Origin: Marinilabiliaceae bacterium ANBcel2
GTDB lineage: Bacteria > Bacteroidota > Bacteroidia > Bacteroidales > Marinilabiliaceae
Length of the DNA stretch: 64,000 bases
Direction of reading: 5' to 3'
Assembly (NCBI GenBank): GCA_029688995.1
Contig: JARULA010000002.1
Location: forward strand, 62,001-126,000
Below the pieces are notes generated by a model. That model had not been told where the DNA came from. It worked only from the letters and a program-made list of their open reading frames with translations, and ran no database searches. Made by a program: the position numbers and the translations under genes. Shown in pieces: positions 33,434 through 35,543 of the stretch. Position 1 is the stretch's first letter; each line of letters opens with the position of its first letter.

Positions 33434-34162
33434 TTAATATATGGTTGTACTATACTGCTTAATTTCTTCCTCATACAGGGGTGCCCTGCCATGGGTTAAC
33501 CTATTTAAAAGGACTTTAAAACCGGTTCCATGATTTTTATGTATAATGTGGCAGAGTTCATGCAACAAAACATAATCGACTAGATGGTCGGGAAGACGCA
33601 TCATATGGATATTTAAATTAATATTATCCCTTTGTGAACAGCTACCCCAACGTGTCTTCATCTTTTTTATAAATAGCCGATTATATCTTATCCCATTTTT
33701 TTTTGATAAATAGTGTACCCTTCCAGGTAGCAAACGTTTGGCTTCAATCCGCAATGCCTCTTCAATACCTAATCTGACAGCATTTTGAAAAGAGTCTGCT
33801 TTTACTGAACTTCCTTTTGGATAACAAACTTTCAAATAACCATTATTGAGCTCAACTGTAATTAAATTGCTGTTGTGAGCCCCTATCTTTAATGAAAATG
33901 TTCGAGCTTTAAAAATAGTATTCTCATCAAAAATTGTATATCTCTTTTCAACCCTATTAGCTGCCAACTCCAAATTTGTTAAGACCCACTTTTTACGTGA
34001 AATCAAAAAAGTTAGAGCCTCATCAAAAGAAGTTTGCAGAGGATAACTAACCCTGACACCTTTAATAGGTTCTATTCGAATAGAGATTCTTTTACATCTT
34101 CTATCTGTCCTGAACAGAACCTTGCCTATATCTTCAATATTAATTAAAAATGGACCCGACAT
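33434..34162 (-). CDS. YgjP-like M48-related metallopeptidase
   Basis: This 242-residue protein of the YgjP/DUF45 family (SprT-like zinc protease fold) carries H201-E-L-C-H205 with a likely third ligand H211 (H-G-T-G-F), and the family-defining R-W-G-S-C-S (171-176) that precedes N-I-N-L-N-I-H. The N-terminal half is a beta-rich domain. Bacterial members are often next to type I restriction genes, but here the downstream partner is the dGTPase. The substrate is unknown; a role in protein quality control is inference. Confidence 0.88.
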   Translation of the reverse strand: MSGPFLINIEDIGKVLFRTDRRCKRISIRIEPIKGVRVSYPLQTSFDEALTFLISRKKWVLTNLELAANRVEKRYTIFDENTIFKARTFSLKIGAHNSNLITVELNNGYLKVCYPKGSSVKADSFQNAVRLGIEEALRIEAKRLLPGRVHYLSKKNGIRYNRLFIKKMKTRWGSCSQRDNINLNIHMMRLPDHLVDYVLLHELCHIIHKNHGTGFKVLLNRLTHGRAPLYEEEIKQYSTTIY

Positions 34163-34253
34163 ACTTTAAAATTAAAAAGATGCAAATTATTAAATTCCTG
34201 CTTTATTTAATAATTGATTTTTCACAAATAATGGTGACATATTATTTTATTTT

Positions 34254-34261
34254 TACTTTTG
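34254..34261 (+). promoter_or_regulatory. Possible -7 element for the DUF6452/DUF6048 pair
   Basis: TACTTTTG matches TAnnTTTG 36 bases before the lipoprotein start. The upstream half has GTG but no TTG near the right place. Support is partial. Confidence 0.4.
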
Positions 34262-34297
34262 CACATTATAGATTGTTTTCTCTTAAAATATAATTAA

Positions 34298-34765
34298 ATG
34301 AGAGGAGTAATAAAGTGTTTAATATTCTCATTTGCAACTACTCTTTTAATCAGTTGCTCACCGAATGATATGTGCCTGTCGAATCAACACAACCTGCAGG
34401 CCGGAATCTATTCAGCCAGAGCAAAAGAAGATAAAGACTCTACTCTAACCAGCAGTACTGTTTATGGATTAGAACTTGAAGAGGATTCATTATATAGAAA
34501 TGAATCAATAAGTTATCTTTACCTTCCATTGAGTTTCTCATCAAACACCACTGCTTTTGTTATAGAAAACAACAATTTAAAAGATACAATATGGTTTAGC
34601 CACGAAAAAGAGGAGGTATATATATCAAGAGAGTGTGGATTTGCATTTAACTTTACATTAGACTCAATGTGGCACACTAAAACATTTATAGATTCTGTAG
34701 CTATAGATTATCCCTACATCAATTACGGAGAAGATATTGAAAATGCGAAAATATATATTTATTAA
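34298..34765 (+). CDS. DUF6452-like lipoprotein
   Basis: This 155-residue predicted lipoprotein has a signal peptide whose lipobox L-L-I-S-C20 is lipidated at C20. The rest looks like a small beta-rich domain. Phrases near the middle (D-T-I-W-F-S, E-V-Y-I-S-R-E-C-G-F) and the end (N-A-K-I-Y) fit the Bacteroidota family I know as DUF6452; this is by memory and not by search. It overlaps the next gene by 29 bases, so translation is coupled, and family pairs of this kind recur in the phylum. Role unknown; localisation to the periplasmic face of the outer or inner membrane is inferred. Confidence 0.75.
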   Translation: MRGVIKCLIFSFATTLLISCSPNDMCLSNQHNLQAGIYSARAKEDKDSTLTSSTVYGLELEEDSLYRNESISYLYLPLSFSSNTTAFVIENNNLKDTIWFSHEKEEVYISRECGFAFNFTLDSMWHTKTFIDSVAIDYPYINYGEDIENAKIYIY

Positions 34766-35543
34766 AATAGCTCTGCTTTTCGGATTCTGTGCAACAGGAC
34801 AGAATTTTGACCCTGAATATCAGCAGTCACCGACTAATCAGGGAATACACAATCAACATCAACAAGGATTTGGTCAAACAGATCCCCATCACCAAACTCA
34901 TGATGAAGCGGAAGAGGAGAGAGAGTACAGGGAGGAGCCTAAAGAGGAGATAATCACATACAAACAGGCCGAAGGCTTTACATTAGGGGTTAATCTTGAG
35001 GGACCAATTAATACCATATCAGATAATAAACAGACTAGCATCTCATTTAATACAAGAATCAATATTTCGGAGTATATTTTTTTTCATGGCGAAATAGGTT
35101 TCCAAAATGTAAATTTTGAAAAAAGTGAATATCACTATGATTCAAATGGCACTTTTATAAAAGCAGGTTTTGAAAATGATATACTAAAAAAGAGAGAGAG
35201 AGGATTAAATGATAACTTGTTAATTGGAATTCACTACGGTTATGCTTTTCAGCAACATGGAGCATCTCATATCAATTTTGAAAATGAATATTGGGGTGAT
35301 TACTCAAGCTCATTGAGCACATACTCTCTTGATACACATTGGATTGAATTATCTTTTGGTCCCAGAATAGAAATAGTAAAGAACTTCTATATCGGCTGGC
35401 ATCTCCATTTAAAAGCAACAATATTTACAAATAACAGATATGATTTAAACCCTTACTTTATACCTGGATATGGTAATGGGGATTCAAGTGTGAATGCAGG
35501 TTTCTCATATAAGTTAGAGTATATGATACCGTGGTCAAATTAA
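34737..35543 (+). CDS. DUF6048-like outer membrane beta-barrel protein
   Basis: This 268-residue protein has a signal peptide (about 1-21) followed by a Gln/His-rich linker and an acidic stretch (about 29-72, with H38, H41, H51, H52, H55). It then has a barrel-like domain of alternating strands (F-T-L-G-V-N-L-E-G-P and W-I-E-L-S-F-G-P-R-I-E-I). The overall pattern matches the family I recall as DUF6048. The HQ-rich linker looks unusual. It is the second gene of a tightly overlapping pair and its stop codon shares the TTAA palindrome with the HAD gene on the other strand. Function unknown; likely works with the lipoprotein. Confidence 0.75.
   Translation: MKMRKYIFIKIALLFGFCATGQNFDPEYQQSPTNQGIHNQHQQGFGQTDPHHQTHDEAEEEREYREEPKEEIITYKQAEGFTLGVNLEGPINTISDNKQTSISFNTRINISEYIFFHGEIGFQNVNFEKSEYHYDSNGTFIKAGFENDILKKRERGLNDNLLIGIHYGYAFQQHGASHINFENEYWGDYSSSLSTYSLDTHWIELSFGPRIEIVKNFYIGWHLHLKATIFTNNRYDLNPYFIPGYGNGDSSVNAGFSYKLEYMIPWSN

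Follow-up and report, generated by a model that had tools for sequence, protein, structure and literature searches.

A lipoprotein gene and an overlapping gene for a predicted outer-membrane barrel (DUF6452 and DUF6048), inherited together in Bacteroidota

Two overlapping genes of Marinilabiliaceae bacterium ANBcel2, encoding a small lipoprotein (DUF6452) and a predicted eight-stranded outer-membrane beta-barrel (DUF6048), belong to families that are inherited together, keep a conserved phase of overlap, diverge in a correlated manner and, on the lipoprotein side, retain or lose two cysteines jointly. This combination suggests that the two form a long-established, two-part unit of the outer membrane, kept in very different Bacteroidota. 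What might such a unit do? The reading that we favour, tentatively and at somewhat less than an even chance, is that the lipoprotein, stapled by a disulfide, docks on the outer loops of the barrel to form a stable complex, in which the barrel would act as its anchor or assembly partner; the physical association, the side of the membrane, the disulfide and the role are what we infer from the observations laid out below.

The locus and its overlapping genes

The window, by which we mean the whole analysed stretch of 64,000 nucleotides (contig JARULA010000002.1, positions 62,001 to 126,000), carries both open reading frames (ORFs) on the plus strand, where the first-pass annotation had placed them (Table 1), and the two families that it had named were confirmed by profile search (97.1 bits against a cut-off of 27.1 for DUF6452, and 119.1 bits against 27 for DUF6048). 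Pfam shows no families competing with these two, and searches of NCBIfam and PHROGs returned no matches to the window pair. The genome contains one DUF6452 and one DUF6048 gene. Since the neighbouring YgjP-like gene points away from the pair and the HAD hydrolase gene converges on it, the window pair is a stand-alone unit.

Table 1. Features of the DUF6452-DUF6048 locus (positions in the window)
Feature	Position	Strand	Details
Element TACTTTTG	34254..34261	+	matches the Bacteroidota -7 element TAnnTTTG; begins 44 bases 5' of the DUF6452 ATG
DUF6452 lipoprotein ORF	34298..34765	+	Pfam PF20050, E 8.5e-28; 155 aa
DUF6452 landmarks			signal peptide 1-19, lipid Cys20, second Cys26, Cys113-Gly114 motif
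Alternative TTG start of the DUF6048 gene	34737..34739	+	upstream of the ATG; yields a 29-base overlap
Two-frame overlap, 23 bases	34743..34765	+	phase conserved
DUF6048 ORF, predicted 8-stranded outer-membrane beta-barrel	34743..35543	+	Pfam PF19515, E 3.5e-34; 266 aa
His/Gln/acid-rich N-terminal linker, DUF6048 protein residues 20-75	34800..34967	+	predicted disordered, periplasmic; unconserved

Upstream of the pair, the motif TAnnTTTG, which we take to be the Bacteroidota -7 consensus, also begins 20-29 bases 5' of the first ATG in five of seven relatives, two of these five being nearly identical. A full -33/-7 match with a spacing of 16-23 was not found at 34101-34320; counting both strands, the window contains 16 instances of this fuller pattern.

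The overlap that had been reported as 29 bases long is real, because no later start in the window leaves a usable signal peptide, but that length requires the TTG at 34737, and the likelier start, the ATG at 34743 with the signal peptide MRKYIFIKIALLFGFCATG^Q, gives 23. Across the 75 pairs for which both ORFs were found on one strand, the overlap is in phase 2 (mod 3) in 74; starts were called mechanically, and the phase does not depend on these calls. The shortest possible overlap measures 11-38 bases in 66 of the 75 pairs, and under a first rule, by which 16 or more residues had to separate the start from the signal-peptide Gln, 74 had no usable start past the first stop codon. With a looser rule of 14 residues, six of the 75 could avoid overlapping, one of them being a mis-started ORF. 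Overlaps of 1 or 4 bases are described in PMC10666635 as by far the commonest and as the usual setting of termination-reinitiation, with coupling being strongly distance-dependent. The earlier step from the overlap to a coupled complex is therefore weakened, and tight translational coupling of the two genes is possible rather than established, the overlap exceeding these usual lengths; the conserved phase is nevertheless notable.

Distribution and surroundings of the pair

That the two genes are conserved together, on which the idea of a joint system had been made to depend, was borne out, with few sampled genomes having only one family. By Pfam, 84 of the 295 genomes in a sample of the order carry DUF6452 and 86 carry DUF6048, with both in 83 and one alone in 4, and the corresponding figures for 296 genomes sampled across the phylum are 44, 44, 43 and 2 (Fisher p = 1e-68 and 2e-49, respectively, with related genomes treated as independent). 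In the order sample, DUF6048 has DUF6452 immediately before it on the same strand in 82 of its 86 genomes. The pair is patchy in distribution, because 208 of the 295 order genomes and 251 of the 296 phylum genomes have neither family by Pfam. Several families of the class have it, as does the named control Bacteroides ihuae; with four family members as queries, a scan gave seven loci, which include Natronoflexus, Alkalitalea, Marinilabilia, Breznakibacter and a Marinilabiliaceae MAG. Viral contigs, scanned once with a lipoprotein pattern drawn from close relatives, yielded no confirmed relative.

Partners missed by Pfam were recovered by our own profiles in genomes G471 and G522 (locus L184 in the latter), and in G321 a weak DUF6452 adjoins a DUF6048-like ORF (own profile, E 1.1e-6). 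G190, of the phylum sample, has DUF6452 alone by Pfam, with a divergent barrel gene adjoining it (hhalign probability 89%), and in G146 a second DUF6452 copy likewise adjoins a divergent barrel gene (95.6%); the hhalign control, one unrelated ORF of the window, scored 0.8%. G538 has no DUF6452 detectable by Pfam or by our own profiles. Among the genomes of the two samples, G443 alone has its DUF6452 and DUF6048 genes on separate contigs (L194, L195). A DUF6048 match in G139 of the phylum sample (L080) was set aside as a chance hit, being below the cut-off and in a 577-aa frame where our own profiles found nothing.

Two details of position may be recorded here. The second pair of G146 (L074:4217-8203, contig C8) sits between what appear by eye to be genes for a dihydrolipoyl acyltransferase and a dihydrolipoamide dehydrogenase, an odd place for envelope genes. 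In G443, DUF6452 lies 11 bases after a peptidase-like gene.

The flanking genes vary among lineages, and no single neighbour hints at function. In families f5 and f6, presumably Weeksellaceae and Flavobacteriaceae, an RlmD-type methyltransferase gene is found just upstream in 28 of 30 loci and one ORF away in one more (one representative was scanned for these calls, and three of the 29 are divergent). Among 40 fetched Bacteroidales regions, a nitroreductase gene is immediately upstream in 16, and in 13 the order runs from DUF4199 through a family-2 glycosyltransferase and a nitroreductase to the pair (e.g. L186:8424-8966), one representative of each of these three having been scanned. A glycosyltransferase/DUF4199 pair, PG0311 and PG0312, is listed in the iron stimulon of Porphyromonas gingivalis (PMC10434189).

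Do the two proteins also diverge in step? Their divergence is correlated when that of the RlmD-type protein is held constant (partial r 0.41, 26 loci, 0 of 5000 permutations), the outliers L076, L082 and L087 having been dropped from the original 29 loci; an earlier version with all 29 (partial r 0.67) was discarded as distorted by these three RlmD outliers. Given either of two Bacteroidales neighbours, partial r was 0.55 (18 loci) and 0.51 (19 loci), with 0 of 3000 permutations in each case, and given a fourth gene it was 0.20 (16 loci, 85 of 3000 permutations). Correlated divergence thus appears to be supportive of the pair but modestly so, and shared rates could contribute to it.

The predicted barrel and its linker

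The proposed nature of the pair, a lipoprotein with a barrel, is supported. DUF6048 is predicted to form an eight-stranded barrel of the OmpA/OmpW type: the model, built from an eight-sequence alignment and confident in some parts (mean pLDDT 69.7), has eight antiparallel strands closed into a barrel, as in OmpA. Alignment of the model with VIA-align gave the N-terminal domain of OprF as a match with Z 14.4 (131 residues aligned, rmsd 2.4), followed by OmpA (13.8), OmpW (13.0), CarO (12.2) and OprG (11.9), and Foldseek placed Ail and OmpA at the top with OmpX slightly lower (E 3.5e-5 and weaker). The fold matches also include PagL (Z 11.2) and PagP (Z 10.1); an enzyme barrel of this kind is not favoured, as no His is in the majority at any of the 32 best-conserved positions, and the Ser that 57 of 75 sequences have at position 168 is replaced by Ala in the window protein.

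Conservation was scored on 77 DUF6048 sequences less the mis-started ORFs of L072 and L187. Gln20, the apparent mature N-terminus, is present in all 75 scored sequences and is probably the first residue of the mature protein, in keeping with the Bacteroidetes Q-rule of a Gln after the signal-peptide cleavage site, as given in PMC5837995. The best-conserved positions include E117, K/R140, R/K164, E202 and K/R208, which probably face inward, judging from strand alternation, together with the outer-loop motifs YW and IPG(Y/F)G. Short helices sit in loops 1 and 4 of the model, both of which are placed outside by strand order.

The first-pass annotation had also drawn attention to the linker preceding the barrel. 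Its composition is as described (residues 20-75, counted from the ATG, contain 5 His, 10 Gln and 13 Asp/Glu), but the suggested meaning, a metal-binding or surface segment, did not hold up. The linker is the least conserved part of DUF6048, with a mean score of 0.055 against 0.36-0.47 for the strands, and 67 of the 77 sequences have no linker His (3 of these 67 lack the stretch to score); in a near relative, Natronoflexus (L159/L198), about 50% identical, the site is some 12 residues long. Low conservation, scarce His and the short linker of this relative led us to reject a conserved metal site. The model falls below pLDDT 50 at residues 14-47 and 49-57, and because the linker precedes strand 1 it would face the periplasm rather than the surface. 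All this is most consistent with a His-rich, lineage-specific spacer, a local add-on.

The lipoprotein

The DUF6452 ORF of 155 aa begins with a signal peptide and has a lipobox-like LLISC20. Four residues (Cys20, Cys26, Cys113 and Gly114) are invariant in an alignment of 25 sequences (A3) and all are present in the window protein, the motif being a family feature derived in this analysis. The second cysteine usually lies 5-7 residues C-terminal to the lipid cysteine. Both non-lipid cysteines occur in 79 of 83 DUF6452 sequences and neither in two; the remaining two come from ORF calls truncated short of the N-terminus, and no sequence with both places present has just one of the two. That these cysteines are kept or lost together supports a disulfide, and Cys26 and Cys113 probably tie the folded domain to the lipid anchor. 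The two proteins in which both were lost are from Bacteroidales (L201:3138-3626 and L204:2646-3134).

Surface-exported lipoproteins carry signals described in PMC5080379 as of the types X-K-(D/E)2-X and SDDDD. In all 24 lipoproteins of f6 and all six of f5, three of the positions from +2 to +6 are acidic; in f6 the signal is mostly EKDDI (15 of 24), which fits the former type, and in f5 it is G(G/S/A)DDD, closer to the latter. Outside these two families, 18 of 51 DUF6452 proteins have at least two acidic residues in this region. The window protein has one (SPNDM), as against at least two, counted by eye, in 13 of the 14 lipobox-bearing proteins among 16 distinct SusD-like frames of the same genome, and its surface display is for this reason doubtful.

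The AlphaFold model of DUF6452 is beta-rich and weak (mean pLDDT 66.5), and nothing in Foldseek matched it at E 0.001 or better. A fold search gave five chains at Z of at least 5, the best being a pilin (Z 5.7), a result that is uninterpretable. Sequence matches of the window lipoprotein to two PRDM9 zinc-finger chains (1e-6 and 2.4e-5) cover about 30 residues around the Cys motif, with no stretch passing alone; a profile search gave no repeat of them, and they were taken as chance. A sequence search of solved structures found no convincing relative of the window pair.

How the two proteins might work together

In the model that we tentatively prefer, DUF6048 would be a small, closed, non-channel barrel of eight strands with both termini in the periplasm, and DUF6452 a beta-rich lipoprotein of about 136 residues whose folded domain would be stapled to the lipid anchor via Cys26-Cys113. 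The lipoprotein would dock on extracellular loops 3 and 4, through the YWGD and IPGYG motifs, and the barrel would act as its anchor in the membrane or its partner in assembly, in the way suggested for Bt1927/Bt1926. The model is also favoured because L3 and L4, with mean conservation of 0.39 and 0.40, are as conserved as the strands; it is weakened because L1 and L2 score lower (0.32 and 0.27), and because, on the opposite side, turns T1 and T3 are conserved as well (0.39 and 0.43) and only the long T2 is low (0.26). This makes loops 3 and 4 promising places for a partner to bind, though they contrast only in part with the periplasmic side. The single acidic residue near the lipid cysteine of the window lipoprotein, the weak DUF6452 model, genomes G443 and G538, and the six pairs that could avoid overlapping also count against the model.

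The conserved short turns T1 and T3 also speak for a different arrangement, in which the lipoprotein is never flipped to the surface but faces the periplasm and acts on the barrel from underneath, say by helping it to assemble or to stay stable. LptE acting on LptD is the model for a lipoprotein of this sort. The same co-inheritance would be expected, and the window lipoprotein has no clear export signal; we nonetheless consider this arrangement rather unlikely, given that every one of the 30 f5/f6 lipoproteins has three acidic residues between +2 and +6, and given the conservation of L3 and L4 but not of the long periplasmic turn T2.

Could the adjacency instead reflect mere operon inertia, with two unrelated envelope proteins sharing a transcript and never touching? 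Overlapping genes are hard to separate, and the partial r of only 0.20 with one control gene would suit such a view; we judge it improbable, however, since the pair persists across different settings (next to the RlmD-type gene, after DUF4199-GT2-nitroreductase, or standing alone), the divergent second copy in G146 is also paired, and few sampled genomes have one family only. An OmpW-like conduit for small hydrophobic molecules, capped by the lipoprotein as a substrate-binding lid, seems similarly improbable: the fold matches do include OmpW, OprG and CarO, and some neighbours are transport or redox genes, but OmpA matches equally well, the neighbours differ by lineage and the conserved, probably inward charges suggest a plugged barrel.

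Returning to docking on the outer loops, its boldest extension is an ancient dedicated device, in which a disulfide-stapled surface lipoprotein sits permanently on the outer loops of a plugged barrel and may aid the assembly, anchoring or flipping of surface lipoproteins. We regard this as highly improbable; if true, the device would operate in no more than a part of the phylum, as most sampled genomes are without both families.

Comparison with known systems

Gene pairs for a lipoprotein and an outer-membrane barrel are familiar in Bacteroidota from the SusCD, RagAB and BtuBG types, whose barrels are large TonB-dependent transporters. DUF6048, unlike these, has eight predicted strands and matches no plug domain; plug, TonB-receptor and SusD families gave no Pfam match in the window pair up to E 1. 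With the N-terminal barrels of OmpA and OprF it shares the predicted closed, eight-stranded form (Z 13.8-14.4), but unlike them it is partnered with a lipoprotein gene, and its chain ends after strand 8, with no Pfam match to an OmpA-like peptidoglycan-binding domain.

A barrel carrying a surface lipoprotein, as proposed here for DUF6048 and DUF6452, is also seen in BamG and BamH; BamG is described as a FadL homologue with 14 strands that resisted deletion, and BamH as an elongated two-domain protein (PMC12611786, PMC12578637). The DUF6048 model differs from this FadL/Toluene_X barrel in having eight strands, and Toluene_X gave no Pfam match in the window pair up to E 1. A place for the pair among the BAM subunits was rejected, as BamG, BamH, BamM and BamP differ in fold or size, going by their published descriptions.

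Neither DUF6452 nor DUF6048 is named in the literature searched, and the closest described analogue is Bt1927/Bt1926 of Bacteroides thetaiotaomicron, where the S-layer surface lipoprotein Bt1927 is accompanied by Bt1926, a predicted eight-stranded barrel for which a role as the outer-membrane anchor or the secretion partner of Bt1927 has been proposed (PMC12578637). Both systems are single loci for a lipoprotein and a predicted eight-stranded barrel, Bt1926 being likened to DUF6048 by description and not by sequence. Bt1927 is described as phase-variable, lattice-forming and about 100 kDa in size, whereas DUF6452 is about 15 kDa. The route by which Bacteroidota lipoproteins reach the surface is called an open question in the same source (PMC12578637). 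Lipoprotein-barrel complexes abound on the surfaces of Bacteroidota, and the tiny, nearly always paired DUF6452 and DUF6048 offer a compact model.
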